Under the pieces are notes generated by a model. That model did no database searches, had not been told where the DNA came from, and saw only the letters and a program-made list of their open reading frames with translations. A stretch of 64,000 nt of DNA, taken from NCBI RefSeq assembly GCF_035083965.1, contig NC_089732.1:3301383-3365382 (forward strand), given 5' to 3'. Origin of the DNA: Branchiostoma lanceolatum. Taxonomy: Eukaryota > Chordata > Leptocardii > Amphioxiformes > Branchiostomatidae. Positions 225-60,690 of this stretch are shown here, piece by piece. Made by a program: the position numbers and the translations under genes. Within the stretch, counting starts at the first letter, position 1; each line of letters begins with the position of its first letter.

Positions 225-3200
225 TCAGGATCCTCGCCTTGCTGAAGAAGTCATCCCTCGGCATGTAGTAGCCGCCGAGCTTCCGTTGTCCTCCTTGGTA
301 GGCTGACCGGCCGTGCAGCACCCGCCAGTTATAAATCAGCAGAATTTGACCTGAAACATACAAAAGGAAGGAATCTATTTGACTGAGATATTGGGATAGC
401 CCTGGATATGTATTTTCTGCAACATCTAGGATTGATTCAGACTGAGTTGTCAGTTCAACTTTCTTTGAAAAATCAAACCATCTAAACTATGATATGTTGA
501 CATCCATTTTTAGCCTTCCTGCTAATTCTGGACAGGAGCTAAAAGGTCGTACAAGACTCTCGCAGAATCATGTTACCTGTAAAATTGAAATGATAAAATG
601 TTTTGACCTTTTAAAAGAATATTATTCAATCATTATTTTGTCAACGTGTACAAGGGGAACGACAAAATTGATTTTAATATTCCTGATTGCTGGTGACAGT
701 GTAGTTACCTGGTTTGAGTTGGAACCAGTACTCGTTGGAGGGATCCCGGATATACTTAGTGAAGTTCCTCAGTGCAGCGTGCCAGCGGCCCACATCCTCC
801 ATCGGTATGGTGTCCAGAACAGCTCGGTCATACAGGCAGTACCTGAATGGATCGAGATCAGAGTCATTTTTAAACAAGTTGGCAGATATCTCCGTGTCCA
901 GGACAAAAAATACAACAACCGGAAGTTCTGCTGCAGTACCAACGTCACATACCAGGAGGCCCAAAATCAATATCGAGCATTGTGTTTCCAACACCTACCC
1001 ACATACAAAATATCATCACAATCCATCAAGAGCTTCTCAAGTAATAACTCGGAATAAACACACATACAAAAAACCGGGAAAGAGATTTGCAAGTAACCCC
1101 AAACCTTATCATCATCAGTTCCTTTCGAGACCCGGTCTTCAACCTCTGCTAGAAAATTAATGTAGGTAAAAGAGATTTGCTAGTAACCCCAAACCTCATC
1201 ATCTTGAGTTCCCTGCGAGAGCCAGGCTCCAGCTCGACTACCGGCCCCGCCCCTGTGGTGTGTAGGAAAGGCTCCAAGAAGTGGTGCGGGACCGGCAGAG
1301 ACGACAGGACAGCGAACCCCTCCGGGTCGTCCTGCCGCAGCTTCTCTGCAGCGTGGAAGCCGTCAACAAGCAGCGAGGTTCCTCCGGAGTCCCCCTCTTC
1401 CAGCATTTGGGTCACTATCAAGCTGAAGAAAAGGAATGGGCATCATCATCATTGATGAAAAAAGCACTGTTTACTGAGTTGTGAATTGTGAACAATGGGG
1501 TCATGTTTTAGTTAAGTTAAAAGAGTACTCTCCTGCTTGACAAAACGCTTTGAAGCGTTTTTGTCCAGCAGGAGAAAAAAAACAGCCGGACCCATTCCTC
1601 TGCTCGGAGAGTAAGACGTTTCCCCAGACTCAGACGTTAACACATGATAGTATTTGTATTCGTAATAAGTACCAGTATCAGAGAACGTTTTGCATTTCGC
1701 ACTTACTCTTATATCCCACCGCTGCCACCAATTGTTATGTAGAGATAACAAGGCTAGGAGAGACACAGCCGCACACACGGAGATGGACTTCAGACTGACT
1801 CCGGACCGCATGACCGGAGGTTTATTAATCAGGGACAGTGCCCTAACTCGTCCCAGATGTCAATTGTGTCATCCCCCCATATTTGGTGAATACTACAATA
1901 CTACGTACCCTGTCGGCTCATTAAAGTGTGTGTTGTCCGTGTGCACGGGAAGAGCCGCAGTAGTGTACCCTGTGTCGTGCCTCTCAAAGTCGCTGGTTAC
2001 AAACCAGTGCTTACCAAAGAACGTCTCCCGGACGTGACTGATCCTTTCCGCAACAGCCTGGTGATTTGGAAATAAGAATATAATTTATAGACAACTCTTC
2101 TCATTTTAAGGATTTTTTAATGAAATTATACTTAAGTTGTTCTTGAGACAGATAATTAGGAAAAAGATGCTGTTTTGCTGACTTAAAAAAAATGATCTTT
2201 TATCTGCATTTCCGTCTACCGTCACACTTGTGCGTATATTCAGTCGTATAAGTTGCGTTTCCGGTTCGAAAACCAGACTACACAACGGTGGGTCAAAGTT
2301 AAAAATAACGTCTTTGCCGCAAACTTTACCTCAGACAAAAAATATCAATACGCAACTCATACGGACTTTAACATGAATGTTCTTACCTCAATATTATACA
2401 AAGGTAACAAGATTGTCCTCAAATGTAGTTTACGGGCAGCTATATCAGAGCAACTTCTGTGTTATATTGAAAGACACAACTTCTCACAATCAGTCAATAT
2501 AGAACCAACCATCTATAAAAACACTACCAACCAATGTTGCTTCCATTGTTACAGGAGCTTCTTCCACAAAGGCAAATCCGTATTTCATCAGAGTGTGCAG
2601 CACCTTAGCCAGCTGCCGGTCGTCTGCCAGGTAGTCCTTGTACAGAACCCTGGGCGGGGGAGAGGCTGTCAGGGCAGCGGCGTTCCACAGGAAGGGCTCC
2701 AGGGTCCCGAGAACGTGCTTTTTGCCCTCATAAGTGTTGCTAAGCAACCAGTCCAGGCCGTACTCTGATTGGTGGCCATCCGGCCCTGAAGAGAGAGAGA
2801 GAACAAACAAAAAACATTCGTAAGGTATTATGTGATGTAATGATATATGTCGATAGATTCATCAGGGCTTGAATTATGTAATCCGTATCTCTGTTATATT
2901 TTGTATGAGCCTTCCCTCTTCCCGCATGACCTCAATGAAAAGCGACCTGCAGGCCGATTTGAGCTCCTCATGAATAGATAAAGGTTCAAACAAACAAAGT
3001 ATCACTATCCGAAAATGAAGGAAACGGGGCATAAGAAAAACATAGGTTAAAGATATGTTAAAGATCTGCTGCCCCTATGGTAGCCGTGGCGACTAACGAA
3101 GGGTGTTTTTGCTTGATATTACAATACAGTGTATGTAATATCAAGCAAAAACACCCTTCGTTAGTCGCCACGGCTACCCCTATGGCTGCTGAATAGCTAT

Positions 3201-13267: not shown

Positions 13268-13440
13268 TTTACCTTCTCCCTGTTGCCTAACTCTGTAACC
13301 AATAAAGGATGGGGGGCCAAATAACTATTCTCCAAGCAAAGGCTTCGATCGAGAGGGGTAGACAAAACTACCCCTCTCGATCGAAGCCTCTGCTTGGAGA
13401 GAACCAAATAACTACTTTCAGTGTGCTAATGGTAAATCTA
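13268..13440. repeat. TTAACCTTCTCCC repeat interrupted by a foldback element
   Basis: The outer sequence matches the uninterrupted copies at 8396 and 13578; a 78-bp palindrome (13326-13403) sits inside it. The uninterrupted copies therefore act as paralogous empty sites. Confidence 0.8.
13326..13403. mobile_element. Foldback element, family 1 (CTCCAAGCAG ends), with 9-bp target duplication
   Basis: Inverted arms of about 33 bp ending in TCTCCAAGC/GCTTGGAGA. It is flanked by the direct repeat CCAAATAAC (13317-13325 and 13404-13412). Same termini as the elements at 21306, 29163 and 50801, but a different internal sequence. Confidence 0.85.
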
Positions 13441-15373: not shown

Positions 15374-15505
15374 TTTAATACCACACTATCTGTACTGTTT
15401 CTAAACGCACAGTTCTCTTGCACACACAGGCTAGTATAGTTTCACACATTGATGCTAAGTCTGTCTCTAACTATCTTTGATGAACTGATACAAAAATAGA
15501 CCTTA

Positions 15506-18500: not shown

Positions 18501-21500
18501 ACTGGGAGGAACAACACAGGTACAATCTCAGCACTCTGGAGATACAATTAATCTATCGACCTATTTTACAATTTTTATATTTTCTATTTTTGAAATACTG
18601 TTGTGATGTCAACAAGGGCTAAGCCATGTCCGACAGGGTGTCTCTATTCACTGGGAGGAACAACACAGGTACAATCAGTCCCTGTTACGTGTAGAAGTAA
18701 AAAAACAAAAACATCTTTAATCTTGAACTTTAACAGAATCCTTGCCCTGAGGCAGTTTCTGGGTGTGAAATGAGTGTCTATAGATACTTCTGATGCCACT
18801 CCTTTCTGTGAAAATTAACTTTAACGTCTGATATACTGTAAATGCATTTAAGATAAAAATTAAAAATGATAAAAGTGTTTGCTGTGGATTTCAGTTCGTG
18901 GTTCAAACAAGGTGGTCAGCGGGCAAAAGACAGCACAAGCTTACTCTACGACCCTGTTCATATGAAACCTATCATAGCCGGTTGGGGTTGAATCAAATTA
19001 CAGAGTTACCAGGCTAATCTAGCCGGCTATCCTAGCCTGATATGACAATCAACCAGCTACATACGTGTAAGGGTTTTAACAGGGCAAATAATATCATTTA
19101 ATCCACCTCAGGAGGATAGGACATTTCTTCCTAAAACCCTTATTTAGCTGGTCAATTTGCTATGATAGGATTAATATGAGTCTAAACGTTTTTCTGGTGG
19201 TTTTCAGTTCGCAGTGATAAGGTTACTGCAAAAACCGCCAAAAATAAACCATGGCTAATATCAAATGCATCTACAGTATCCTTATCTTGCAGGAAATTTT
19301 GGGTGTGAAATGAGGAGTGCACATCATGTCATGTCCTGAAACAATATCTGTATATCTAGGCCAATATATCTATACATCTATGCAAAAAAGAATCTGTGAA
19401 ATAGCGATTTGATTGTATAAGACATTCATCTCCTCATCATGTAATTGTATAATATACGACTCCCTATTGTATCTCCGTTGATATCATCTACCTTAATTTA
19501 TTTGACAATATTATATACGTAGTGCCTTCATGTAGTTTGAAAAGCCTAGAACCTAACCATTGTATAGCATAGAACCTAACTATAGCTTTTAGTAGTTTGA
19601 TGTACATGTAAGTAGCCAGTAATATTTCATTATTGCCTTACATTGTACCTGTTGCAATCGTTGTGCAATAAACTTTGACTTGACTTGACTTGACATACCT
19701 CTGATGCCACTGTCGCACACCCAGATCAAGGGGAACTTGGACGCTCGATAGCCCGGCATCAAGTTGTTGATCTTGGGATTGATGCCAACGCGCTCCCCTC
19801 CTGCCATGCAACAGAGAACCGGGCATTGGTAAAAAAAGTAAAGGTAGTCCCGTAGCCATTTTGAGGCCGTAGGGGCAGTGGGTTGTTATTCACTGTGTCT
19901 AAGGCACGGTTTTGGAAGGCAGAGCCCAACCCTCACTGTCCACTGTCTTTACTTCACCAACCAAAGTCAGGTACCCCTTTTTACACCAGGTTGGAGTGAG
20001 GAACGTTGTGTTAAGTGCCTTCCCCAAGAGCACAAGAACTAGATTGGTGAGATAACAGGATTCGACCTAGGACCTCTGGGTTCCGGGCCAAACACCCTGC
20101 CGTCACGCCACACGACCCCACTGACAAGTCATGGCTAAACTACAAACAAAGTAGGTACTCATTTTCACCTGAGTGGAGTGAGGGAATTGGTGCTAAGTTC
20201 CTTTCCGAAGGTCAACATCAGGACCTGTCAGGGATCCGGTTACTCAATACCTCCAGTTTCTGAGTCAACAGTTTATCCTAACCATCAGGCCACCAAGCCA
20301 TTGGTGGCCTTGAGTAGTATGTATGGGGATCGATTAGCCTCCATTGCAGACTCCTTCCAGTTGTTTTCTTTTTCAAGTTACAGTTTTCTTATTTACTATT
20401 ACATTTTTTTCTTATCGCTGGCCGGGAAGCAGTAAGAAAAAAAATGTGATTATAATAAAACTGTAACTTAAAGAAGAAAACAGCTGGAAGGAGTCTGCAA
20501 CGGAGGCTACATGTAGGGATCGATGTTAGAACCAGGGGTTCATCTAAATCGGGAAAGAGGGGCGCTGCGCCCTCTTGTTTCAGCCCAGCGCCCCCTTGCG
20601 GAATTCCGATTTTAGCTTAAATCCAGCATACAGCCTTCCCTCAGCGATCGATTCTTCCATAAATACATAGAATTCGCTCCCTTGCCTGTGTGTGCTCCCT
20701 CTTATTCAATTTTTCTAGAAAAAACCCTGAGAACGATTCAATTTTTACTTACCAACAAATATCTGACAGGGTACTGAGGGGAATTCCTTCTTTAACTGCT
20801 GCAGCAGGTCCAGAACTGGGTCTCCGTCGTCTTGGACACAAAATAAAATCTCAAACTGCAGAGAAAAAACAGAAATGTCATCATTACGTACATGATACTA
20901 ATACGGATGGTACTGCTTCAGCACAGTTAGGAATATATACCGGTACAGTACCGCAAAAATTATTTAGGTATGGGTCCAAAATACCAAAACATCAATGTAC
21001 TCATGATTTGAAAAAAAAAACAGGTACCTTTCATGATATGAATCAAAGTAGCAAAGGCTTATAATTAACAGTAGAAAGAAGCCCTGTCTTTCTAATAAAT
21101 GTTTTCTAACTTGTTCATCAAAAGTTGAAATACAAAAAACATTAACCAGCCTGGTTGTTGACTTGGTGGCCCCTATTTAGACATCTGTTTCTTTTTTTCA
21201 CATTCATTTTCATCTATTTCTTGTAAAAATACGCGAACCGAAAAATCAAATTATTGAAGTTAAATACATGTATTACTAGTTTTACTGTAGTTAGTACATA
21301 ATTGTTAGTCTCCAAGCAGAGGTCATGGGGCAGAGCCTCACCGTTTTATCATATGCCTTTTTTTTTCGCTGGCCCCATGTATGATAAAACAGTGACACTC
21401 TGCCCCATGAACCCCTGCTTGGAGAGTACATAATTGTACTTATGTCGCAATCTGTAGAAGTACATACCTGTGGATAATCTAATTTAAAAAATGTTTCTAG

Positions 21501-29162: not shown

Positions 29163-29273
29163 TAGTCTCCAAGCAGACCTACGGGTTGCAAACTCAACTG
29201 GCAGAAGGGTTATAAAAACTCCTTCTGCCAGTTGGATACGGTCTTTGCAACCCGTAGGTCTGCTTGGAGACTA
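29163..29273. mobile_element. Foldback element, family 1
   Basis: TAGTCTCCAAGCAG ... CTGCTTGGAGACTA, 111 bp, arms nearly complete. Internally almost the same as the element in the P450 exon (50801-50930): both carry ACGGGTTGCAAA and CTCCTTCTGCCAGTTGGAT. AGCTATAGC/AGCTTTAGC flank it. Confidence 0.88.
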
Positions 29274-31347: not shown

Positions 31348-32392
31348 AGCCAACATCTAACGTTACGCAGATGTTGAACCCCCTATACTAACAAAGAGTG
31401 CAGACAAACAATGGGGCATGAGAATAAGATTAGGCTACAATTTTCCCCAACAACCGTTCTGCTAGGAAAGTAGTCAACATCGACCTGTAGTAGCTTTTTA
31501 ATAGGCAACCACGTTGCGGTGACAATGGTGTCACAAAAGCGTCGCAAACAAGTCAAATCAGATATGTAGGCGCACTAAACAAGTTAGATGTGTTTTAGTT
31601 GTAGTGACCTGACGTAATTTATAAGCCTCATCTGCTGTTTGCCAATGAAGTCAGTACACACGTAAACGTCCTTGACATTTTCCGCATCCAGCAATCGACC
31701 ACACGCCTGGCAACGCACATTCCCTAAAAACAGCATCACCAAACATAGATCATTGAATTATTTCAACAGTGGATTATAGAGCTTTTTGATAGGCAACGAT
31801 GCGGTGACAACGATGTCACTAAAGCGCTGCAAACAAGTCAAATATGATATATAAATACCTTTAATTGACGCACTAAACAAGATAAATGTATTTTCAGTTG
31901 CAGATTTATCTGACAACAGCGACGGTAGCTTAGAGCTTATTCTGTTGTATGCCAATGACGTCACTCACTTAAAATCGACCTTCAGGTACAATGTATTCTT
32001 TACAGCCAACAATACCAGGGTGTGCACAGGGGATAACAACATTACAGTCTGTGACGCCGGCAGGGATTTGTTTATAACAAAGCATCTTAACCCAGTTAAG
32101 CCCCGGTTAGACCAGCTGAACATGGCCTCCGGCTCCTAACCTTCCACCAACAACGAATATGTTGAATCATGGCCTATTGGGTCAAGTCAATAGTTACAGG
32201 CCAACTTCTAGAATTATCAGATCTTTTAATGAAATATGATCAAAAGAATATACAAAATATACAGTCAAAATCACTGACTTCTTCAAATTAAATAAGAACA
32301 TTATTTTCGTCAATTTTGCCCCCTCCCCCTACTCCTGGTACAACCCTCAGTTGATTATAGAGTAATAATGACCGATGATTATGGCAAAATGG

Positions 32393-32645
32393 TAGCCTCT
32401 ACCAGTCTCCGCAGGTCGCTGAGAAAATAGTAGAAATTGGCCAAATAGAGTCAATTGTATGAAGGGAGTCGGCTACGGAGGGTCCAATAGGCAACCCTAG
32501 AGCCTGTCTTATGTCGGTGCCTTCTTTGATCGGCACTAATCACTATCTAATAGGTGCCTGTGGATGTGAATGTTATCCTCCATGGCCAAAGTCCCCTGGC
32601 AAATGTTCTCTCTATTTCCGACGCGGTTAGTCTGGTAGAGACTAG
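32393..32645. mobile_element. Foldback element, family 2, diverged
   Basis: Left arm TAGCCTCTACCAGTCTCCGC with GAGAAAATAGTAGAAATTGG; right arm CTGGTAGAGACTAG. The middle (about 32490-32600) differs from sister copies. Confidence 0.7.
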
Positions 32646-32921
32646 CAAAATGGAGCCTTCTGATTAGTCAACATAACCTGGCTATATGATGAAGACTCAG
32701 AAGGCATGGTCAGTTCCTATAACTTTGCTCACACAATGGTTTGTTTATTCAGTAGCTATAGGAAACAACCATGTCTTATAACAACATGTATACCCCAGGG
32801 CAGGTAGAACCCTGCTATTACACATTGTGCAGATTATCAGATAAACATTCCAACAAAATGCAGTCACAAACTTACAAGTAACACAGCAACAGTGACATTC
32901 TGTTTTTTCTCTTTGAAAACT

Positions 32922-36300: not shown

Positions 36301-39300
36301 AAATCTGCAACTAAAAACACATTTATCTTGTTTAGTGCGGCAATTAAGGGTATTTAGAGGTCTAAAGGACATTTTTGGATTCTATCTAGGGATCAGCTGA
36401 ATGTCTGCAAGTCATTGAGCTCCATCAAATGTAAGAGCAAAGGCTAAAAAAATACAATTTTTAAAGTCAATGTCAATGACCATCTTGTGATCAACAAACT
36501 GCAATTCCTTTATACATGATGCCAGCTTTGCAATTCCTTTCCGCACGCATCAGGTAATTTCTTATGATACAAAGACAATTTAGTAAATGAGTATGATTGT
36601 ACTGATGGTATTCTAAACACTTACCGTCCAGCATGGTATGGAGGAAGGCTGTAGCCTGGTCCAGATGTGGAGTAACTAACAGAAAGTCATCCACCAGACG
36701 TAGCAGCAACTTATATATGGGAAAAAGTTTTTGTCAATTTCAACAAAAAACTACCTGTTTATATAAAGGCTACCAAATACTTCTAAACTTAAATCTTGAA
36801 CAGACTTTATTACATTTTTACATTAATGTAAATTGTAGTTTCATGTTTGGGTTTTTTGCCATCTCTTTACTACGATTTTAAAAGCATGTCTAGTTGAGAC
36901 ACAAAGCAAACTGAGTTCAGTCCTGCACTAAAAAATAATGACATTCTTGGCTTTACTTTGTTGAAGAAAAATCTTCCAGAATGAAAACTATTCTGTGTAC
37001 AAGAATAAGACTGTGAGGACGTTAATTTTTCTTAGAATATTTTTCTCTGACCAAGTTGTTGTTTCTCACACTTATATATGACTATAAACTTCTAGATCAA
37101 TTTTCTTGTTGTTATAATTCTTCTGTGGTACAGAATTTATACCAGCGAGACTAATATAATTTTTGTCCAACTCACCCCATCCTTGTCCATCCCCTGCAGA
37201 TATCTCCTCTCCATGTCGGCATAGAAGTAGTTACAGAGCAGAGTGGAGAGGCGGGATCCCTGGCTGATCCCCGTGATCTGAAGGTAGTAGATCCCGCCGA
37301 TCTGGATCACGTTGTTCTGGACATGCTGCTTTAGCTGACTCAACAGACTGGCGGAAGTTGTATAGTGCTGGCAGACCTAGGGACGGGTTCAAGGGACAGC
37401 CAAAAATGTTTAAAAGGGTAAAGCAGTCATCCTCAATTGAGGTGATTAGAGAAGTATGATAACATGACGTTTTTTCAAGTAGCTAGTGGTATATTGTATA
37501 TTCTTACAGGGAGAGATTGCTTGACAGGGCTTTAGCTCGTTTCTGTGGTGTACTGGCCTAGTGTGTAGCTGATTCAGTTTCTGTGACTGTCGGGGGCTGA
37601 GATTGTACTGGGGTGGCTGTGAAGTTCAATTTTTCAGAAAACGGGGACTTTCCTGGTCCTGTTAGCTTATAAGAGCTTCTCCTTTAACATGCTCGAGGCG
37701 CCTCCTCAAACATGGGACCCCCAATCTACATCCCTTCCAAAAAGAAGGCTGCACAGCCCCAACCAAGATGTCCTGACCCAGGACTGAACCGGGGTCTGCC
37801 AGTTAGCAACTAATTGGAACCGGGAGCTCAACAGAAAGTCAGCTACCAGTTGAACTACAGGGACATCCCTAAAGAAGTACTATGTAATATGTTACCCCTG
37901 GTGAAACAAACGAACAAACAAACGACAACTCGCACCTGATCAACAGCAATGGCATCGTACATCGTTCCAGCTTGGTTTTGAAGTAACACAAAGTCCTGGA
38001 AGTTTGGGATGAAGTCTTCCAACACAGAAACGTCTTTCTCAAAGGTGCACTGAACACCCCTTCTAGTGGCTATCACTTTTGCATACCTCCTGTGATAATG
38101 TGGAGACTTTGTCATTGTTATCACTGTGACAATATGTTAAAGGCGACTTTTTCTGATAAGCAGCAAAGGATAATATTTAGGTCCTGGAGTTATCCTATCA
38201 TCATAATAGGAATCTTATAGTGTGCAATCATATTTTACTCCAACTTAGCGTCACTGTTATCTCAAGTGTGTTCGATATCTATATTTCACACGGATCAATA
38301 TGAAAACGACACATTCAAAAGATTAGGAGTTTTAAAAAACACCTTGGTCAGCCTCTTAATCAGATCAACAGATATCTGTGGGAGCAAGTTCTTAAAAAAA
38401 GTGCTGTGCATGCACCGGCAATCAATATTTTACTTAATTATAACGTATCTCACAGTAAAGAAAGGTACCTGAATCAAAGTTGAACTGTAAATTGCCTTAA
38501 CCCAAAAGGGACACACCAAAACCTCAGTCTTTGTCAAGGACATGGATGGTTTCTTCTATTCCTCTTGCAAAAAAGGCAGGCTATGGGTCCAAGGATAGCT
38601 CATTTCTTGACAAAGACTGGAGCTGTTCTGTCAAAAAGTCCAAGTTACAATTCAACTTTGATTCAATCAGACTGGATTCTACCAGCACAGATGAACTTTC
38701 AAGTGGAGACGGGTACCTGATCAGGTAGTCAGCCCTCCTGGTGAGAACATTGGTCATCACCTTGAGAAGTTTCTCCTGAGGGATGCTGTCGAAACAGTGC
38801 TGGATATCGACCTTCACAAAGTACAGGGGACTGGAAAAAACACACAAACAGGAAGACAGATAGTCTGTGCAATGCAAACTGTTACTCTGAGAATGATTTC
38901 ATCAGGTTGGAACATCAGTAGATAATAAGGATGCGTTCTGCCGTCTGTCGCTGTCATTCTGTCAGGAGAACCAGGATAAATGGTCTCTTATCGCGGTCTT
39001 CAGTTTCAGGGCCGTATTCTTGGAAGAAGATACACACACCCTGTAGCACTTCGTGAGAGTCTGCATGCTCTTTTCAGTAAGGTGTAGGCAGGCCCTTTTG
39101 ATTTTGCGTATAATTCGTAGGGAAGTTATTTTCTTTTACGTAGTTCGTAGGGAGGAGGTGAAAATTTCCCGTAAGTTACAGCCAGTGCATGTCGCGTAAA
39201 GCGTAATCAAGCCGAAAAATTTGACTATCCTCCATTTTTGTACGCGGCCTGGCGTCTTGGAGAGCTTGCTTTCGGGTGGAAGTGTTGGGTCGACTCGATA

Positions 39301-42300
39301 AATTTCATCTTTGTTGGGATCTGTTGGGAGGGGTTGGGTACTTAGAGATCTGATTTTCAAAGAGCGGGATTTATGTAACCCGGCGGTTAATATTAATGGA
39401 GGTTACCCAAACAGAATACATAGTATACATAGAATAACCTTCTATCATGTGAAGGTTGAAGGCCATGACACAACAAATTCTGTTTCTTACTCAGTGCACC
39501 CAGAAGCTTTGCGCTTGACCACAAAGTCTTTCCACTTCTTGTAGATGTCGTTTATCCCAAACACAGAAGCTCCCAGCACGTCTGGCACCGCTTCCTTCTC
39601 GTATGTCAGGACTTTGAACAGGTTCTGCAGCTTGTAGTTGATGGAAGTGCCTGTACTATTCATTTCAGTCTACAGAGAAAGTAAAGATTACTTAGTTCTC
39701 TGAATAGTTTCATCAGGTTGGTAGAACATAGGATATTGAAGTTCTCTTGACACAAAAAAGTACCACATACTTTGGCTACATACAGCAGCGAGAATCAGCG
39801 CTCCAGTCAAAATTGACCAATCAATCTACACCAAGAACAGATAGTACACAGCCAATCAGATATAATTTAAACTGACAGTTAAACAACTGACCAATCAGCA
39901 CCATAGACAGATACAGTAGTACATTAGGCAATCAGATAAAAGCTACAGACTGCTTTCCACTCCATACTGTAACCTACTGACCAATCAGCACCATGGACAA
40001 AACAGTACACAGCCAATCAGATACATCTAAAAGCTAAACAGTTATCCACTTGACCAATCAGCACCATGCACAGAACAGTACACAGCCAATCAGATAAAAG
40101 CTACAGACTGCTATCCTTTTTCATACTATCACCTGATGACAAATCAGCACCAAGGACAGTATAGTACTTGTTGCTTTATTCAATATTGTCAATGTCAAGC
40201 AATTTAGCCCTTGACTCCCAGAGCTGCAACCACGCATTTAGTGGCCAAAGGACACGAATAAGCGACTCAAGATGCGTAGTTACAACAGAGGAATTCTAAT
40301 ATTCACAACATCATGGCGGAGTGGAAAAGACTGAAGAACCATGTGATCCCTACCGGTAACTATCATGTCATCTCATTAACATAAACTAACTCTAGTAGTG
40401 GCGCTACTTGACAAATTGTCACTCACCTTCTCTTGTCTGCCCATGTTGACGACTGGTCTCAGTCCTGTTTTCTTGGGAACAAACCTGAGGTTGGCCACGC
40501 CCAGACACTGCTGGTCCCTGGTACAGACAACAACATTTCGTAAGAGAATTGCTGTAAGTCGTACAATATTTGTAGCAGTCTATAATATAATTATGTTTAA
40601 CTTGGCATTTGATTACTACCAGGGCTCCTACACTTGCTGCCCTGAATAAATGGTGATTTTGGCAGCAAGTATAGAAGCCCCGGTTGTAATCGGATGGCAT
40701 CCAGGCTAGCAACTTCCTGCAATTCAAAGAGTTGCGAACATTAATAGTTTCAGTCACTGGACCTGTACTATTGCATAGAAAAGTTTACCTGATGAGGTTT
40801 TGGACAGTGGTCTGGCTGACTGGGCTCAGCATGTGCCTGCTGAGGTGCTGCTCTGTGGCCTTGTCCTTTAAGATTTTCCAGACGGAGCTCCTGTAGTACA
40901 GCACCTGGTTCCGCTGGGCTGTTGTCTCTGTGATGTAGAAGTACGACTGGAATATGTAGTGAAGAAAAATTCGAAAGTCAACAACTGGGTTAAACCATTC
41001 AATCTTCTGCATTCATTGACATGTTGTGTTGGCGCAATGGTTAATGTGTTTGGGCCCCAAATCCAGAGGTTCTGGGTTCGAATTCGCTGATATGCCACCA
41101 ATGTTGTGCCCTACGGAATGGCACTTTAAAACTGAAGACTTTCCTCACTTTGAAAAGTCTGGCTGAAGTCACTTTAAATGCATTTAAGTTCGCATGCTTT
41201 TTATTTCACGGTAAACAGAAAACGGAGTGTTTGCGTCAGTTTTAAATTCGCGTTTGAAACAATAGTAGCGCTACAGTCCTAGGTGGGCAAAAAGTTTTGC
41301 GGCGGTTTTAAGTTCACCACGAACATTTCTGCATTTACAGTACCGTAGTACACTGAAGTCACTATATCTACACAAGCAGTTTGGCCACAGCTGTCACTCT
41401 AAAGATGCCATTATTGTATATTCTAAAGAACTTGGTACATGTACGTACCTTGAGAACTGTGATCACAAAGTTGTTGAAGAGCCACCACACCAACTTGCCC
41501 AGAACTGCTCGTCTGGTCCGGAACTCTTGTAGTGTGTTGGAGTCTAACTTCAGCCAGTCACAGTCGTTCAACTGAAAATGAAAAACGCTGCTCAATAAAT
41601 CAACTAGAAACATACCAATTTAAATACTTCGATTCTTACGGAAAAATAACAAAGCAGGCAATTGTATTTGACAGAAATGAAAGAGACACTGTCATTCTGT
41701 ACCCTGTACCTGTACCCACCTCTACAGATGAACATATTAAGTAAAACCATGGATTTATAAACAAGTGAGAATCTGTTGAACAGACCCTCATTCCAGTCAT
41801 AAGCCGGTGCAGTGAGATCCTCTCATACCGACCCATCCTCAGGAACAGTAAGACGTTGGTCAGGAAACAGGCTTTGTTGTGCCGGGAACCCCACAGGTCC
41901 TCTGGGATAACTTTACGCAGTATACTCCTCAGCAGCTGATAGATCTGTGCGGCAATATTTTTGGTTACATAGTGCAGACATAGTGCTCTAACGAGTTGAA
42001 GCACATACAGAGTTCAGCTTCCACTTCCATTATTCTCTCTTTTGGGTTGCAAAAAAACAAACATATCTGGGGCAAAATAGGTGAAGTATCTGAACATTTT
42101 AAATGCCAAAATTATCAGGATTTATTTCAAAGCGATAATCCTAAAATGGTTCTACGAAACTACATGTTTTTTGTAATGTGGACTTCAGCAGGAGAAGAGG
42201 ACTGTACCTTAGCTTAGAGAAGTGTACCTTAGCCTCCTTCCCAGGCTTCCTAGTACGTCCCTCGGCTACATAACTCCATTGGCAGCGGAACTCCCTTGCC

Positions 42301-49341: not shown

Positions 49342-50761
49342 CTATTTAGACCTCCCTCGATCTGTGGTGCACAGCAAATTATATTTTCTAGCAGCCGACA
49401 TGCGCTAGAAAATGCGACGTTACATTATCTCCAATTTGTCCCGTATTGTCTCTGGTTACATACCGGTTACATATAGCATAGAGTGAGACCATTTAGCAAA
49501 GGTGATAAACGCGGGCGTCAAGAAGCACGAATCCCTTCTACCTCTGATCCTGCATGCTGTGCTCTCAGACTTGCCGCGCAAACCAAATTCATGTTACTGT
49601 AAATTCTTTCCATTTCGGAGCACTTAAAATCCTTGAAAGTTGAAAGAAATAAAAATTTCGTGGTATCTTTGAGCTCTTAGTTTGAAATTAAACATTATTT
49701 TTATAACTATGCATTTGTTTGTGGAGTAATCAATTCGTAGCGAAAGTCTACAGTGAAAACTGTGCGCATAAAGTTTCAAAGTCTACGGTAAGCAGCTGGT
49801 CGCAGAGGGGGGCGTGTCTTTCCCCAGAAGTAGGTGGGGTTAAAGGTTAAGGAAGCGGAAAGTGCGGTCCAGTCTGGTAAGGGTGAAAAACTGGTCCGGC
49901 TCTAGATAATTTTTTTCACCGGTGGGGTCGCAATATGGACATTTCTTCATATATTGTCCTAATCCTACATGTACAATGCAGGGGTTATGACTTGTCAATA
50001 TGCACATGAATTTGCTATTTGGATCCATTGAGAGAAATCCTGGTGTAGAAGATGGTAGACCTGTAGTGACTTGTACATTGTATATAGTGAATTTACTCAT
50101 GTCAAAATACTTGTTTGGGACAAACGATTAAAAAGTGACATCCATCGTTTATCACTTCTGGACAAGATGGACATTTATATATTTATTTCGATTTACCACA
50201 CTATTGACATAACAGGTGACTATCACCTTTTCAAGATGTCATCCCAGACCAGACTGTAAGATTTGGACCATCGCACACCGGGGCATGCCCCTACTCTTTT
50301 TCGAAAGGTGTGATGGGTTCTTTAACGTGCGCGGGGTGTGGCTCTCCCCAAACACGGGACCTCCATTTAACGTCCTATCAGAGGGACGTCCCTAACCCTA
50401 GTGAGCTAGGTACTCGTTTACACCTGAGTGAAGTGAGGAAAGTCGTGTTAAGTGCCATTCCCAAGGGCACAACGCCGGGGCGCAAGTTCGGACATATATC
50501 TGGGCACAACCCGGGATTAGATCCCGGGTCCCATTGTTTGACAGCCGCGCACTCTTACACTTGCGCCACACGACATGCCCCCTATTTAACAACCTCCTTG
50601 TTTATGAAAAATTATACTTCTCTATTAATTTTCGACTGACGAGCTCGTTCATTCACTTCTTCAGCTTTGTTACCCAACCCTGATGCACACTCGCACATTC
50701 TTTCTATTCAACCATGAACGTTAACTACTGATCTAACTACTGGGCATTCATTTATTTCCAG
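49342..50761. other. Intergenic: TERT upstream region
   Basis: The TERT promoter should be in 49342-49600 (minus strand); I find no TATA box. The rest holds a SINE (50270-50575) and unassigned sequence, including about 49830-49920, which loosely resembles 6690-6750. Confidence 0.5.
50270..50575 (-). mobile_element. SINE family B-related, minus orientation
   Basis: On the minus strand: GTCGTGTGGCGCAAGTG head, then GGGATCTAATCCCGGG, tail CTTTCCTCACTTCACTCAGG. An additional AGGGACGTCCCT block links it to 17219-17510. Confidence 0.7.
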
Positions 50762-51092
50762 GCTGCTGTGAGTGTACGTGTGTCTTGGTGAGCAGCTGGC
50801 TAGTCTCCAAGCAGAGTTACGGGTTGCAAAGACCGTATCCAACTGGCAAAAGGAGTTTTATAGCAACCCTAAAAACTCCTTCTGCCAGTTGGATACGGTC
50901 TTTGCAACCCGTAGGTATGCTTGGAGACTACAGCTGGCCAGGATGAAACTTTTCCTGTTCTCGACCCTGCTGCAGTCGCTCAACTGCAAGACGCCAGAGG
51001 GCGCTCCACCTCGGCACACTGACGGCGTAGTAAGTATTTCGTCACTGACGTTGGCCCCGCATCCATTCCATCTATGTGCGATACCGCGTTAG
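50762..51092 (+). pseudogene. CYP2-type cytochrome P450, last exon only, with transposon inserted in frame
   Basis: After a good acceptor (TTTATTTCCAG) comes VCLGEQLA, the haem-ligand Cys and L-helix start, then an insert, then LARMKLFLFSTLLQSL, TPEGAPP and a C-terminus ending AIPR-stop, as CYP2-clan proteins end. A 130-bp foldback (50801-50930) plus its 8-bp target duplication adds 138 bp, exactly 46 codons, without a stop. Upstream, the expected Gly-Lys-Arg before Val-Cys is decayed and has a TGA in frame, and no other P450 exon is seen, so I call a pseudogene fragment. AATAAA follows at 51141. Confidence 0.82.
50801..50930. mobile_element. Foldback element, family 1, inserted in the P450 exon
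   Basis: TAGTCTCCAAGCAG ... CTTGGAGACTA with an 8-bp direct repeat CAGCTGGC at 50793-50800 and 50931-50938. Deleting element plus one repeat restores an uninterrupted LGEQLARMK frame, proving the boundaries. Nearly same interior as 29163-29273. Confidence 0.93.
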
Positions 51093-52406
51093 TTATACTG
51101 AATTGTCGGACCAGGAGTCACCGTACATTATGAGAGAAAAAATAAAAGTTTATTGCTCGTCATGAATGGTATTTGATAATGAATGAACGAAGACCTTTAT
51201 TGTGCTCTATGGTACCCCCTGGGATAAGTAACGTTACAGATCACAACAAAAGAATACTATATACAGATATCTCTAAACATTGCCATATGCCCGAAGTCGC
51301 CATGCGTTATACGGACCTGGATAATTACCAGCATGCCAAAATTCAAACAAACCTTTTCAAAGGATCTCGAGTTATACCTGCGAACACACAAACACAATAA
51401 TTGTATCCACAAAAACAGTACCCCTTTCGGAGGTTACTGACCTCCTTCCCGGAGGTAACAACGTGATAATATCGACACACCAGACGCGAAGCCCGTTACG
51501 TTAGCTATAATAATATTATAGCCATTTGTACAGTATACCCTTTCTATGCATTGTTTCATGTTGCAATTAGCCCTTGGACAAGAACGTGCAAATAAAACAT
51601 CATTATAAGTACGACAGCTTTTATTTCGCTTAAGAATTTTAATGTCGTCACCATAGCCACGATAGTGCCATGGGTAAACGGTGTCCATATACCGATGGCA
51701 TTGATGAATTGAACACCCACAGCACATGGGACATTCTGGGGTGACTAACCGGAGGTACCATCCGAGCAATGCGGATCATCTGATGACCATGAAACCATAT
51801 GCGGAGTCAGTCTTTACATACAGAATTAACAACGGAATGAAATGGTATCCTGAATATAGTAAAATCGTGTTGGGTCTGACATGACCTACAAAAAAGAAAC
51901 CGAAGAACACAAAATTCGGGCGCTACATGTACAGAACAATTATGACATATCAGCATACATACATACATAACATACATATATATATATATATATAACAGAC
52001 ATCAACCCGTATCCTGACCCTTAAGCGGGTACCTCACTGGACTGCGTCAGACTGCGCTAGGGAATTGCGCCAACTGAGGAGCGACGCATTTGTGTATGAC
52101 TGAGCCCAGATGAGCCAAACCAAATGGCCGTGCCCGGAATGTGCGATGATTAGAAATTTATTTAAAAAAATGTACATTTGCAGTGATAAAAACCGTTTAC
52201 CGTTTGGGGCCGCTTTGCGCCGCTTTTCGTTTTTGCCAATCAAATGTCAAATTTGAAAAAAGAAGCACTTTCAGGCGGGTTACACGGGCCACTTTGCTTA
52301 TGTCTGGAGCAATTTGGCGCTGTCCAGTGAGATACCAGATTCAGCTCTCGTCTTAGCAATTATCAGCGGCTGTTACATGTATGCGATTGATATTTGAGTC
52401 AGAAAG
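51093..52406. other. Intergenic, no gene recognised
   Basis: Contains the P450 poly(A) signal, a short (TA)n tract at 51975-51993 and an open minus-strand frame at 51434-51769 (111 codons, Cys-rich) that I cannot tie to any family. Between 52030 and 52330 the sequence is GC-mixed with no exon evidence. Confidence 0.5.
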
Positions 52407-53174
52407 CTACTCTGCCCGGATACCCCAGACGATCGCCATCGCGTACAGAGAGCTGTTTTGGCGGGTAAACTCGGCAAAATCGTCCCCTGGCTTCCCCCAG
52501 GTACACTGGCTCGCGCAGAACACAGTGTCTCCCCCGCCCGAAGATCCGACGGTCACGAAACTGACGAACTTGTACCCCTTCGGTCCCTTCTGCAACAACG
52601 TGGTCTTCAGTTCCGCGGACAGCTTCTGCGTCAAGATCTTACAGAACACGGGCTCGTAGCGCCGGCCGACGGCATGACGGTCGATCGTATCCTCTATGAT
52701 GCCTTTGACCTGTACAATGGGGAAGTGTTGTTGACACTGACGTTCCGTGGGGGTCAGACGGGCTCGAGATGTGGTCCAAGCGGGGTCTGGGACCGCCCAG
52801 ACGATGCCTATCCCGTACAGAGACGCATTCTGGAACGACGCCTCCGCGAAGTCATCCCCGGCCGCCTGGCCCAAAGCCTTGACGCACTGGCTCCCGTAGA
52901 ATACAGGCCCGGCTGTCTGGTTCGCCCCCACGTCGATGAAAGTGATGAACTTGTACCCTTTAGGTCCCCGCGTTATCAGCTTATCATTTAGCTGGTCCAG
53001 GATGTTTCCGGTCAGATCCTTGCAGAGGGCAGCGCGGTACGAGCGTCCATCCAGGTTCTGTCGCAGCGTCTCTTGGACGAGGTTTTTCACGTGCAGAGCG
53101 GGAAAGCGTGGCCGGCTCTCGGACGTCATTTTGTTCCAGTTGCTTGTCAGACTTTCGGTGGTCTGGCCAGGCAT
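52407..53174 (-). CDS. Tandem Tctex1-domain protein (dynein light chain Tctex-type)
   Basis: Single-exon frame of 255 aa with two Tctex1/DYNLT domains. Domain 1 (about residues 22-133) has GPKGYKFITFIDVG and NASLYGIGIVWAV; domain 2 (about 146-255) has GPKGYKFVSFVTVG and NSSLYAMAIVWGIRAE, ending at the stop. Each has the helix-helix then beta-strand order of the family, whose members dimerise and bind dynein intermediate chain or cargo. Most family members have one domain (about 110-200 aa), so the tandem arrangement is unusual and may form an internal dimer. The absence of introns, unlike its neighbours, hints at a retrocopy origin. A TATA-like box at 53189-53195 is so close to the first ATG that Met16 (53129) may be the real start. 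Confidence 0.85.
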   Translation of the reverse strand: MPGQTTESLTSNWNKMTSESRPRFPALHVKNLVQETLRQNLDGRSYRAALCKDLTGNILDQLNDKLITRGPKGYKFITFIDVGANQTAGPVFYGSQCVKALGQAAGDDFAEASFQNASLYGIGIVWAVPDPAWTTSRARLTPTERQCQQHFPIVQVKGIIEDTIDRHAVGRRYEPVFCKILTQKLSAELKTTLLQKGPKGYKFVSFVTVGSSGGGDTVFCASQCTWGKPGDDFAEFTRQNSSLYAMAIVWGIRAE

Positions 53175-53188
53175 AGCGACTGCTCGTT

Positions 53189-53195
53189 CTTTATA
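53189..53195 (-). promoter_or_regulatory. TATA-like box upstream of the Tctex1 gene
   Basis: TATAAAG on the minus strand, 15 nt before the first ATG. If transcription starts about 30 nt downstream, it would begin after that ATG, favouring Met16 as initiator. Confidence 0.4.
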
Positions 53196-53861
53196 CGGGC
53201 TTGCGTCAAAGCCTCTCCAGAGGCAAGTAACGATGGATATGGCTGGAGAGAAAGTGGCAACAGTGACGCAGTGAGGGCGCGCTCACTCTCCGGAAAGGAA
53301 GTAACATTCGTCAGATGACTCGCGATCGACACCGATACTCCCCAAACTAGGCAGCCAGCTTCTGAGTAGACAGGAGGACAGGGTGTTTTGCTCAAGGGCA
53401 AAACTGACGGGATCATACCAATGCAGTGATACACGCAGCTAGTTGCTATATTAGTCGCGTTCCTAACGAGTTTACAACTTGGCAAGGGCAACATCCAGAG
53501 ATTGGGACTCTACTCAACGTGCTCTCTTCTCAACTATGCCCCAACAAGAGTAACATTCGTAAATCTGAAAACAGTGAGACAATTTTGGAGCGGACGCATC
53601 GTAACATATCCGGGGTTCTATCAACTACGCGTAACGTTACCCTAAACATAAAAGACGTAAAAGCCATAGGTGGAATGAGATTATATTTGAAATGTGGGTA
53701 GGTCTTAGAAGGACGAAGATTAGGGTTTTACGGATACCATCTTGATGCAGACAGATACGTATAGCGAAGACGTTGAACGTATATCCTACTTGCTTACTTA
53801 TACTTACTTACTTTGGCCTAATAATATATTTCGTTAGCTATCCTAGTCGCCTGTATACAAT

Positions 53862-54099: not shown

Positions 54100-54319
54100 T
54101 AGCCTCTACAAGGCCCCGCTGATCGCTGGGAAAATAGTAGCAATCGGCCAAATCGAGTGAATAGTATGCCGCTCTGGGTACTCCGCTATGCACTGGGAAG
54201 TTCAATTAATGGTCGGCTATTGACCTTCCCTGCATAGCGGACTACCCTCGGCATACTATTCACTCTATTTGGCCGATTTCTACTATTTTCCCATCGATCG
54301 GCGGAGCCTGGTAGAGGCT
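54100..54319. mobile_element. Foldback element, family 2, with 9-bp target duplication
   Basis: TAGCCTCTACAAGGCCCCGC ... GCGGAGCCTGGTAGAGGCTA, flanked by CATTTATTC at 54091-54099 and 54320-54328. Arms contain AATAGTATGCC and CTATGCAGGGAAGGTC-type blocks mirrored. Confidence 0.9.
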
Positions 54320-54538
54320 ACATTTATTCCACTATTTGAACTTTATATTGTAATTCATAAAGTGTTTATGTACTGTATGTATTACTTATTTCTTCTTTAT
54401 CATTACATCAAATGTTAAACCAGTTGAATGAGGAGGGTATAGAATAAGCCACTTAAGGTTTTCCCTCCTCCCGCACGTTTTTATAATTATCATGTTATGT
54501 TGTTTATTGTGCAAATAAATAAATAAACAAACAAACCA

Positions 54539-54778: not shown

Positions 54779-54851
54779 TGGAGATGCAGGGTATCGATCC
54801 CCGTACCTCTCGCATGCTAAGCGAGCGCTCTACCATCTGAGCTACATCCCC
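54779..54851 (-). tRNA. tRNA-Ala (anticodon AGC)
   Basis: 73 nt read on the minus strand, starting GGGGATGTAGCTCAGATGG and ending CATCTCCA. Acceptor stem pairs 7/7 (one G-U), D stem GCTC/GAGC, anticodon stem CTCGC/GCGAG with loop TTAGCAT, T stem CGGGG/CCCTG with loop ATCGATA. No intron. The A at the first T-loop position is a known feature of some animal tRNA-Ala genes. A and B boxes are intact. A T4 stretch (AAAA on plus at 54762-54765) downstream can terminate Pol III. Confidence 0.94.
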
Positions 54852-55606
54852 TTTCACGCCGGTCCCGGAATCCCTTGTCTTCTTGACCCACTCGTACTTT
54901 GAAATAGTCACATCCTTGTCCTATGAATTTGTGCTGCTTTCTTTTGCGACCTTAAAATCGCCGTTTTTAGTATTTCAGCGAGAGAAACTGCCATTATACG
55001 ACTGTCAGACAAGCCAGAAGCCCAACAGTCAGTACAACCTTCTACCCCAACATCTGCTTGGAGATAAGTGTTTGTTCGGTACTTGGCACAAAGCGCCCTT
55101 CTGCGCAAGACGACCGCCAGCCAGACGCCATCGCGATTTGAGCACAAGCGGCGCCCGACCGTAACCCAATCCCTTTCGAAAATGACTACTATATTCACAA
55201 GTGTCTGACGACAGAGGTTCTTGATGGCAGCGGGCGAAAAATCGTGCTGAAATCCACCGATTTCGACTGGATTTGGTACGGCCAAATTAAAGATGGCGGT
55301 TGAGGTCAATGGAATAGTCTACTGCGTTACGGGTGATCTAGTTCACTTTGAATAATTATTATTTATACTCAACCATGCAAATGCACACTTATTTGTTATA
55401 AACTTCATTTGAAAAAGGTTTTCAAAACGTGTGATTTTTTTTACCTAATATATTTTGAAAAAAAAAGGCGTTTGTGTCTGTTGTTTCTGACAAAGTTCAC
55501 TCCCCCATATTACTAGTAGAATATCTCAAGCAGACAAAAGAGTTGGTCGACCACACGGGGCCAAACAATTCATACCAGCCGCGTCTACTAATTCCATATT
55601 TCTACG
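54852..55606. other. Intergenic between tRNA-Ala and the Tigger-derived gene
   Basis: No convincing gene. A minus-strand frame at 54908-55309 (133 codons) starts in AAGATGGCGG-type context on the opposite strand but matches no family I know. The promoter of the plus-strand gene should lie at the right end. Confidence 0.45.
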
Positions 55607-58283
55607 ATGGCGAGCGAATCGTGCGCGCGATCCAAGGTGGTAAAGAAGACTTTGACGCTGGGACAGAAGATCGAAGTGATTCGGCGATACGAGAAGGGCG
55701 GAACCGGGGCTCGAGCCATCGCCCTTGACTTCGGGGTGGGGAAGACTCAGATTCAGAACATCGTCAAGAGAAAGCGTGAGTACTTGGAGGACTACGAGAA
55801 GAACGCGCCGATCAACAAGAAAAGGAACACCCGACTGTCGGCCAATGAAGACATCAACAAACTCTGTTGGCATTACTTCTGTGAAACAAGCGCCCGTCCC
55901 GTAACCGGACCAATGCTGCAGCAACAAGCTCTCAAGTTCGCAGAACAACTCGGAGTTGTAGGCTTCAAAGCGTCAAACGGGTGGCTAGAGAGCTTTAAAA
56001 ACCGCCATAACATCGCGATCGGAGCCAAGATCACCGGAGTCACAGGGGCAGTCGCGAAGGACTGGCCGGACAGGATTGCGGACATCACTGCAGGCTACTC
56101 CGCAGAAGACATCTACAATTTGGACGAATCCGGCCTGTTCTTCCGAACGACGTCCAACCAGACGGTGTTGCCAGTGAAGGGCGATCACTCCTACTTTAGC
56201 AGAGAGAAGCAGGCCCAAGATTCCCTTACCATCCTCCTATGTGTGAACATGGCTGGGGAAAAAGAGAGACCGCTTGTGATCGGCCAGGCGGCCCGCCCTC
56301 CGTGCTTCAAGAACGTGCAACTTTCCAGCCTCCCCGTGAGTTACGCCCACAACAAAATGGCCTGGATGACGTCCGAACTCTTCCTTGACTGGCTGAGGAC
56401 CTTCGATCGCAAGATGGGGAGCCAGGATCGCAAAGTTCTCCTCTTCCTGGACCACGCGCCAAGCCACCCTCATGTCAGGTACAGGAACGTGGAGCTCGTG
56501 TTCTTCCCTCCTAGCACCACGTCCAGATACCAGCCGCTGGGCCAGGGGGTCATCCACAGCTTCAAACTCAACTACCGCAAGAGACAGCTGAGACGCGTCC
56601 TCCAGGAAAGACAGAAACACCGCGAGGCGTCAGGTATTTGGAACTTTTATCTGTATAGCCGGTATAACCGCTCTTCGGCGTAACACACCAGCTTCGAAGT
56701 CACGCCTAACTTTTGTACATCTCGCTCGTTCTTATCTTAGTCATCTTAGAATACTGAAGCTTCAACTTCAAGCGGTACTTGGTGGTAACGCACTCTTCTA
56801 TAGTTTACTTGTTTATTTTTCTGGCTACAATAGTTCTAGAAAATTACGATTTTTTGAACTCATCAATCGGTAACACTGGCACTAAAAAAAACATGACTAC
56901 TTCTAGTTCTCTTTTGAGCCGTTTTAGTCAGTACAGTACTTATCAGTCAGTACATCGGACTACATCCATCAGTTTATCAGTCATTTTCATTTGTACGCCA
57001 TGCAAAGTCTGGACATTTTCCTTCGTCTTCAGGTGAGCAGCTCGCCAGGCAGGTCAGTGTCCTGGAGGCCGTACAGTGGGTCGACTCTGCCTGGCAGGAA
57101 GTTCCCCAGCGCACCATCCAGACATGCTTCAGGAAGGCAGGCTTCGTCTGGAGAATGTCTGGTAAGTTGGCCATTCTGTGTATAAGGGAGTAGCAGATCT
57201 AGAGTTCTTAAAGATGCACTATGTTATAACATTATGACAACATAGAAAGTAGACTTTCCTAACTTTTCCTCCCAACATTTAGAAAATACTGTATGCTGAA
57301 AGGTGTCATTCACATTAAGACATCACAGTTACTGCTTCCCATATATAATAGGAGGCTATAAAACAAGGCTTCACAAAAGTACTAACACAATTTTCATAAT
57401 CAATTAAGAAATTCCATCATTCCAGTTTTTCCCATGGTTATACTGTAATACATGTAAAATGTTAACATATGTCATTTCATTTTCATTTCATTTATGGCTG
57501 GTGGAACATTGAAGGGTACCAAACATGCAAAAATGTGCCTAATTTGCATTCATTTAAGTGATAAACATGATAAATGTTAGCAATTTCCAACTTTTTACAT
57601 TTATAAGTTATACATACATGTAAGTATACATACCCTTGCATAGATTATGTAAATGTGTAAGTTATTTGCATATTTTCAATATATTTTATGGAGGTATGAA
57701 GTTCCCTGATGACAAGTTACAATACAAATTACTTATATGATAGTATACCTTTCTTTGAATACATTTTGTAGCAGGTATTGCTGAGCCGGAGGAAGAAAGG
57801 GGTGAAGCAGAGGACCTGACGTATAACAGAGATCCCGCCGGCACGGACCAGCTGACACAGGAGCTCTTCGGATGTAAGTTTGACGAGCTGTCACTCATCG
57901 ACCGAGATCTGCCCACATGTGACCTGGAGGGGCGCGACTGGGACGAGGACGCAACGATTCTCCTGGATGAACTTCAGGAGGAGACCAGGGAGGGATCTGA
58001 TAATGACAATGAAGAAGACACTACAGATAACATTAACAGGGAAGAGTCGTCAGTCGTTGATAAGGACAAAGCAACAAGCAACACAGAGACGAGGGACGCT
58101 GAACCTCACAAGGACAACCCCATCAAGGACCTGAACACCTTAGTGGAGCTGATGAAACACATCAAGCACTTCTGTGCGGAGGAGGGGCTCGGCGATCTGT
58201 TGAACTCATTCCACCAGGCAGACGAGATGCTGACCTCCATTTGGAGTGAGCGGCAAGGTGCTGCAAACATAGACCAGAATTGA
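55607..58283 (+). CDS. Tigger/pogo transposase-derived protein (TIGD-like), 3 exons
   Basis: Exons 55607-56633, 57033-57161 and 57775-58283 (or from 57772), 554-555 aa. Domains: CENP-B/pogo N-terminal helix-turn-helix (about residues 12-60: TLGQKIEVIRRYEKG), Tc5-type HTH (about 75-140: GWLESFKNRHNI), DDE_1 endonuclease (about 165-340). Catalytic positions: D173 in YNLDESG and D282 in LFLDHAPSH are kept, but the third, normally LDQG, reads PLGQG (G312). C-terminal exons are acidic, as in some TIGD proteins. No terminal inverted repeats were seen close by and two introns interrupt it, so a domesticated gene is likely. TIGD4/TIGD6-like is the best guess. The last acceptor is a NAGNAG (TAGCAG), giving two isoforms one residue apart. 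Confidence 0.92.
56650..56712 (-). mobile_element. CR1-like LINE 3' end fragment, inverted
   Basis: TATAGCCGGTATAACCGC and CGTAACACACCAGCTTCG are the reverse complement of the terminal part of 3964-4206. It begins right after exon 1 of the Tigger-derived gene. Confidence 0.7.
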
Positions 58284-59375: not shown

Positions 59376-59486
59376 TAGCCTGGAATCCAGACCAATTATA
59401 GCTCCCGAGTCTCTCCGCAAATAGCGGAGCTATTGCTATTTGAGGAGAGAGACTCGGGAGCTATAATAGGTCTGGATTCCAGGCTA
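59376..59486. repeat. Foldback palindrome
   Basis: TAGCCTGGAATCCAGACC ... GGTCTGGATTCCAGGCTA, with GCTCCCGAGTCTCTCC mirrored. About 50-bp arms, tiny loop near 59432. A separate family from the others. Confidence 0.85.
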
Positions 59487-59649: not shown

Positions 59650-60690
59650 GGTCCGTGTATTTACCGAAATACACGAAATACACGTCCGAAATACCGAAAT
59701 ACACATGAAGATGGCAGAAATATACCAAAATACAGCATGATTTGATGAGATAACATCACAGGTTGCTATGTGCCGGCATAAGATAATATATTTATATATA
59801 GCCCTGGCGACAAGAAAATGACAGAAAATACTTCGCGATCCCAGCGCGGCCGGTCGCCGCCATCTTTCTTACCATACGCCATGATGTTTGTTTTACTTTT
59901 TAGTGGTATCTTCTTCTGTCAGTCATTTACACAAACTGGTGGTGAAATCTACCAAAATACAGTATGGTTTGATGAGCAAACATTACAGGCTGCTATATTT
60001 CGGCACAGAATAATGTTATGGCCCTGATGACAAGGAAAATACAGAAAATACTTCGCGATCCCGACCGGCCCGCGGCCGCGTCATCTTTAAATTCTTACCA
60101 TACGCCATGATGTTTGTTTTAAGTGGTATCTGGGTCATTTACACGCAAAAGGGTGGTGAAATGTACCGAAATGCAGTATGAGTTGGTGAGTAAACATCAC
60201 AGGTTGCTACATATCGGCATCAAATAATGTATTTTATGGCCCTGGCGACAAGAAATCCGGAGAAAATACATCGTGAGGGTCCGCATTGCGGATCCCAGCG
60301 GAATTCGAAAATGGCGGATATGCGATTATTTCCCCGATGTTCACAGAATAACACATAACCCTAACCCTAAAAGCTAAAAACAACCCTAACCCCGTGAGGA
60401 TGATCCTGTAAATGGAACAAATGAGAAAATAAAACTGACATCCTTTAGTAAGAAGATACCACTAAAAACAAGATGGCGGCGGCCGGCCGCGCTGGGATCG
60501 CGAAGTATTTTCTGTCATTTTCTTGTCGCCAGGTCTATAAATATAATATCTTATGCAGGCACATAGCAATCTGTGATGTTATCTCATCAAATCATGCTGT
60601 ATTTCGGTAGATTTCTGCCATCTTCATGTGTATTTCGGTATTTCGGACTTGTATTTCGTGTATTTCGGAAAATACACGGACCGCCTTTTA
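59650..60690. repeat. Large inverted repeat with internal direct repeats
   Basis: Arms of about 220 bp (about 59650-59875 and 60470-60690) share CGAAATACACATGAAGATGG, TGATGAGATAACATCACAG, GGCGACAAGAAAATGACAG and CTTCGCGATCCCAGCGCGGC in opposite orientation. Between them are two further direct copies of the GCGACAAGAAAA / CTTCGCGATCCC unit (about 60000-60165 and 60235-60300). Non-coding; a composite foldback. Confidence 0.8.

Follow-up and report, generated by a model that had tools for sequence, protein, structure and literature searches.

The window analyzed here, a 64,000-nt stretch of the Branchiostoma lanceolatum genome (GCF_035083965.1; NC_089732.1, positions 3,301,383 to 3,365,382, forward strand), contains a CYP2-like P450 terminal exon interrupted by a short palindromic element that is flanked by direct repeats. 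The parts of the exon, the element and its relatives in the window are listed in Table 1, and all coordinates are those of the window.

Several other features were recognized in the window. Two minus-strand matches, one to a telomerase RNA-binding domain (41639-42013; Pfam E value, 1.7e-15) and one below threshold to a reverse transcriptase (38584-38898), probably mark exons of TERT, the telomerase gene. An uninterrupted 291-aa frame at 52407-53282 (minus strand) contains two stretches matching Tctex-1, a dynein light chain (E value, 1.1e-27), and a tRNA-Ala (AGC) at 54779-54851 (minus strand) was identified with both ARAGORN and Rfam. Two TauD-type dioxygenase matches lie on opposite strands, one clear (7543-7911, plus strand; E value, 8.8e-14) and one under the cut-off (217-486, minus strand). 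The family scan also gave a Glyco_transf_21 match, a second DDE_1 match and a third TauD match.

Table 1. Features of the interrupted exon and of related elements in the window
Feature	Position	Strand	Details
Terminal-exon splice acceptor (AG)	50760..50761	+	Score 11.16, 99.8th percentile of all window AGs
5' part of CYP2-like terminal exon	50762..50800	+	Imperfect TG run; about 8 extra nt before Cys codon 50781-50783
Target-site duplication, left copy	50793..50800	+	CAGCTGGC; abuts palindrome end exactly
Foldback MITE, palindromic nonautonomous DNA transposon, 130 bp	50801..50930	.	Ends TAGTCTCCAAGCA
Target-site duplication, right copy	50931..50938	+	CAGCTGGC; abuts palindrome end exactly
3' part of CYP2-like terminal exon	50939..51092	+	RMKLFLF...CAIPR-stop; TAG 51090-51092
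AATAAA, possible polyadenylation signal of lost gene	51141..51146	+	Starts 49 nt past the stop
Palindromic element, TAGCC ends	3081..3176	.	Exact 9-bp duplication CCCCTATGG
Palindromic element, near-identical ends (right end GAGAA), other arms	13326..13403	.	Exact 9-bp duplication CCAAATAAC
Palindromic element, ends same as exon copy, other arms	21306..21428	.	9-bp duplication CATAATTGT
Sibling of the exon element, 111 bp	29163..29273	.	9-bp duplication AGCTATAGC/AGCTTTAGC, one mismatch
Inverted-repeat element, only its short ends paired (TAGCC/TAGTC), incompletely palindromic	32393..32644	.	Exact 9-bp duplication GCAAAATGG
Palindromic element, TAGCC ends	54100..54320	.	Exact 9-bp duplication CATTTATTC
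Palindromic element, TAGCC ends	59376..59486	.	Exact 9-bp duplication TCTGTAGGA

A CYP2-like terminal exon

With the element and one repeat removed, the joined flanks read VYVCLGEQLARMKLFLFSTLLQ...CAIPR (full reading, VYVCLGEQLARMKLFLFSTLLQSLNCKTPEGAPPRHTDGVVSISSLTLAPHPFHLCAIPR). Joining raised the similarity to human CYP2D6 from 43.9 to 50.4 bits; for CYP2C9 the score went up from 25.4 bits to 38.9. The unjoined frame found CYP2D6 as its best solved-structure match (E value, 1.4e-5); its Pfam p450 score of 17.2 bits fell short of the 22.8-bit cut-off, and no Pfam family was matched by the right flank by itself. Compared with the last exon of human CYP2D6 and CYP2C9, the segment CLGEQLARMKLFLF...CAIPR matches the C-terminal exon, whereas the haem loop is damaged, a 130-bp element is inserted and other exons were not recognized. 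In tblastn searches of the window with two CYP2 queries, the exon was found by CYP2D6 (E value, 3e-7) and by CYP2C9 only at an E value of 0.11, and nothing besides this exon fell below an E value of 0.4. Profile and single-sequence searches of the 2170 stop-to-stop frames of at least 20 aa gave the exon frame E values of 2.7e-5, 0.0012 and 7.6e-8; the same frames included no second P450 frame below an E value of 0.2, a search in which lone exons score low and diverged short ones may be missed.

The P450 haem loop carries the motif FxxGxRxC (G-x-R-x-C), and CYP2 last exons start in phase 1, 11 nt before the Cys codon. The readings that follow apply to this exon in so far as both features hold for amphioxus genes. 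At the expected haem loop the joined exon reads VYVCLG, with the G and R before the Cys replaced by V-Y-V. Judged by this motif, a functional CYP2 haem loop is present in neither frame, as the C-terminal frame reads VYVC and the entry frame reads CCECTC. Here 19 nt precede the Cys codon, against the usual 11, and the 8 nt in excess fall within the imperfect run of TGs, which would fit slippage if the CYP2 exon layout applies.

The acceptor was scored with approximate human matrices. Entered in phase 1 from 50762, the exon reads CCECTCVLVSSWLVSKQSYG... / CCECTCVLVSSW..., crosses the element in a different phase and meets a stop at 50944-50946. The C-terminal frame (50772-51092) is open through the element and encodes 106 aa; phase-1 entry into the CLGEQLA frame would need the alternative AG at 50771-72, which ranked at only the 14th percentile of window AGs. 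Two statements of the first-pass annotation need to be read against these frames. The upstream TGA that it took as a sign of decay is real (50769-50771) but belongs to the C-terminal frame, whereas the phase-1 frame entered from the acceptor is a different one and reaches its own stop within the 3' part of the exon. Removal of the element, which was said to restore a standard CYP2 C terminus, does yield a frame that matches CYP2 better, but that frame is not fully standard, given VYVCLG and an entry that is not from the acceptor. On these grounds the exon probably does not form the end of a working P450, whether or not the element is present. As a point against the dead-exon view, the 3' part is well kept, with an open frame, the expected stop and an AATAAA 49 nt on, so the relic either is not old or stayed under selection until recently.

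The inserted element and its relatives

The arms of the element (50801-50859 and 50872-50930) are 59 nt each and 93% complementary around a 12-nt center, forming a near-perfect palindrome with the terminal sequence TANTCTCCAAGCAG. The predicted DNA fold of -65.2 kcal/mol compares with a mean of -12.79 for shuffled sequences (z, -20.88; 0 of 200 shuffles folded as well). When the whole window was scanned for 8-bp repeats around 12-bp inverted ends (up to two mismatches; span, 40 to 1500), the exon element was the sole site with an exact repeat. The palindrome, its fold and the CAGCTGGC repeat at both ends confirm the first-pass annotation of a palindromic transposon with an 8-bp duplication inside a P450 exon. 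MITE traits were all present, namely, a length of 130 bp, absence of a transposase ORF, TIRs and a flanking duplication; multiple copies were also found within the window, comprising the sibling at 29163-29273, alike over the whole element, and relatives with shared ends. In the exon copy, 4 of 59 positions differ between the two arms, which suggests a fairly recent insertion, provided that the arms of its parent matched.

Classical Foldback (FB) elements have long TIRs made of tandem subrepeats. Tandem Repeats Finder detected no array in 50801-50930 at a score of 50, and identification as a classical FB element was rejected for this reason. The earlier "foldback" label fits the shape of the element, but no such subrepeats turned up. 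Exact matches to a 25-base stretch of arm sequence numbered 0 in viral_contigs and 0 in genome_contigs, collections that are not expected to include animal DNA.

One arm of the 29163-29273 sibling is 94.9% identical to the exon element over 59 nt. The elements at 21306-21428 and 13326-13403 have approximately 13 terminal bases in common with the exon element, and their arms lack similarity to it. Four like-ended palindromes in the window thereby represent three arm sets without mutual similarity: 13326-13403 (78 bp), 21306-21428 (123 bp), and the pair 29163-29273 and 50801-50930 (111 and 130 bp). Given like ends and unrelated arms, it is as if one transposase had mobilized independently formed hairpins, and local palindromes of this kind are of modest interest for the origin of MITEs. 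A larger inverted-repeat structure was also seen at 59650-60682, with 147-bp arms that are 95% complementary and 739 nt between them.

The window was scanned for inverted ends of TA type flanked by exact duplications 7 to 11 bp long. Five cases had 9 bp (3081, 21306, 32393, 54100 and 59376), one, the exon copy, had 8 bp, and there were zero cases at 7, 10 or 11 bp; direct ends, scanned as a decoy, gave zero at 8 or 9 bp. Among like-ended elements with a recognized duplication, 9 bp was found in seven of eight (29163 with one mismatch) and 8 bp only in the exon copy. By the exact test, 14 foldback-like hits comprised five with a 9-bp duplication at their ends, one in which it was displaced (20335), the exon copy with 8 bp, and seven with none, the last including the 29163 copy, which has 9 bp when one mismatch is allowed. 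The wider set of TAGCC-like inverted repeats includes 15163-15374, 20335-20509 and 31121-31347. The 9-bp repeat of 20335-20509 is displaced by 6 nt, and the elements at 15163 and 31121 have TAGCC-like ends but no exact duplication, which counts against every such element showing one. The pairings 23240-24481 and 29163-32754 were taken as chance (one mismatch in the 8-bp repeat and 6 at one of the ends), and good orphan ends at 6929, 29511, 1613, 47471 and 55067 could not be paired within 6 kb.

Mutator-like elements (MULEs) make duplications of about 9 bp, the length seen in seven of the eight like-ended elements (one mismatched), with 8 bp in the exon copy. Because of these 9-bp duplications, the transposase acting in trans on the exon element was most likely Mutator-like. 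The hAT superfamily was considered for the 8-bp duplication of the exon copy and dropped, as seven relatives have 9 bp. No MULE domain was detected at an E value of 0.001 in 81 of the 95 window frames of at least 90 aa, and no transposase-bearing member of the exon element's type was seen in the window. A pogo/Tigger-like transposase is encoded at 55592-56680 (plus strand) by a 363-aa frame with CENP-B, Tc5 DNA-binding and DDE_1 domains; transposases of the DDE_1/Tc5 type usually make TA duplications.

The amphioxus MITEs known as LanceleTn are short inverted-repeat elements in or near genes. The exon element is of the same short inverted-repeat type from the same kind of animal, a likeness drawn from description and not from sequence. 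LanceletTn-2 is named once in one report (PMC5802833), and a literature search for LanceleTn found nothing. Tm1, a group of Mutator/Foldback MITE-like elements of root-knot nematodes, is described as having duplications of 8 to 10 bp, most commonly 9, and TIRs that are on average 93% identical within one element (PMC3169594). The exon element resembles Tm1 in its foldback shape, the 8- to 10-bp and mostly 9-bp duplications of its kind and a TIR identity of about 93%, but no composite subrepeats were found in its arms. Literature searches covering mostly the opening parts of abstracts turned up no mention of this insertion, a silence that carries little weight, and PMC8277862 does not mention amphioxus or Branchiostoma.

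Reading frame and fate of the interrupted exon

The element and one copy of the duplication add 130 + 8 = 138 nt, that is, exactly 46 codons without a stop, as the first-pass annotation had stated, and the frame runs on uninterrupted until its stop at 51092. The three forward frames of the element contain 4, 0 and 0 stops, leaving two of three open, while none of its three reverse frames is free of stops; 1689 of 20,000 base shuffles of the element (8.4%) were open in the present frame. Because two of the three forward frames lack stops, the open frame is weak evidence, and it would be a mild coincidence given that and the one-in-three odds on length. The in-frame state may also postdate the insertion, since seven of eight like-ended elements carry 9-bp duplications. 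A 9-nt left copy, CAGCTGGCC, would make the insertion +1 and give QLA-stop at the first bases of the element, through the element's own TAG. Loss of one base at a junction after a 9-bp duplication could have produced the 138 nt, or the duplication may have been 8 bp from the start.

We favor the view, with a rough probability of 0.86, that a MITE lies in the terminal exon of a now-dead CYP2-type P450 relic and is in frame by chance, a case of ordinary genome decay. The MITE would have come from a population of elements whose ends are of TA type and whose target duplications are usually 9 bp long, and would have been cut and pasted into the exon by a transposase supplied in trans, most likely one of Mutator-like type. 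Death of the exon may have preceded the insertion or been caused by it. The 46-codon frame would then be open by chance, 138 being divisible by three and the phase stop-free, and the strong acceptor would not lead into it in the right phase. The single recognizable P450 exon, the damaged haem loop and the broken entry frame make it most likely that the exon is dead. The same observations, with the limited sensitivity of the exon searches, uphold the dead-exon reading preferred in the first-pass annotation. As a counterpoint to chance, the one base by which the duplication falls under the 9-bp norm is precisely what opens the frame.

A variant of this explanation starts from a gene that was alive when the element arrived, was stopped at QLA by a 9-bp duplication and was later reopened by chance through loss of one base. 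The 9-bp duplications of seven of eight like-ended elements in the window (one mismatched), the QLA* reading of a 9-nt left copy and the mere 4 of 59 differences between the arms agree with this order of events. Duplications of 8 bp do, however, occur in 9-bp families, as in Tm1, where 45 of 53 elements have 8 to 10 bp and 9 is the commonest length (PMC3169594), and the 8-nt excess and lost haem residues of the exon would kill the gene without the element. We regard killing of a live gene by the insertion as possible but doubtful.

The element could instead serve as a new introner-like intron, in which a GTGAGC donor at 50788 and an acceptor within the element at 50888 would remove 101 nt and lead from the entry frame into the C-terminal frame. 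By the approximate human matrices, these sites are at the 98th and 96th percentiles and form the best pair of the stretch, and the frame spliced in this way is open to the stop. Amphioxus PRHOXNB has a MITE in a gained intron according to PMC5802833, and introners carrying TSDs and TIRs are known (PMC9860276), which resemble the present case in being transposons with such features inside an exon. Unlike those introners, this is a single event, known from DNA alone, whose canonical sites allow no exact removal: given the sequence of the two copies, excision of exactly 138 nt is impossible for any GT-AG or GC-AG intron. As 24 of 62 GT-AG pairs across the element restore the frame, rescue by the 50788/50888 pair comes cheap, and in its product both the CLGE stretch and the spacing of the haem loop would be lost. 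A new intron is held to be highly improbable. The first-pass annotation had also raised a P450 that was once made with an insert beside the haem loop, and a protein with 46 residues after CLGEQLA, past or present, is the least probable of the readings weighed. Beyond the 106-aa open frame, nothing at the locus speaks for it. Its precedent is amphioxus Bl_op16, whose last exon is reported to be longer than those of its orthologues owing to palindromic repeats (PMC5802833). The palindromic repeat in a last exon is common to both cases, but the Bl_op16 repeats lie at the end of an exon in an annotated opsin gene. The insert reading also has the wrong entry phase from the strong acceptor and a weak alternative acceptor (14th percentile), GxR is lost, an upstream exon was not recognized in the window, and the insert would sit just after the haem Cys in the P450 structure.

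That the exon is still transcribed, with the MITE recruited either as a fresh intron (50788/50888) or as an in-frame segment after a one-base loss regained the frame, is on the whole very unlikely. If true, it would be an animal gene caught recruiting a foldback transposon. On the introner and amphioxus precedents, recruitment in this exon would not be absurd, but nothing at the locus calls for it. Under the favored reading of a MITE in a dead CYP2-type exon, the locus illustrates how a transposon inserted in frame can seem meaningful when it is not: local siblings show which duplication length is normal, and the splice acceptor points to the likely entry frame.
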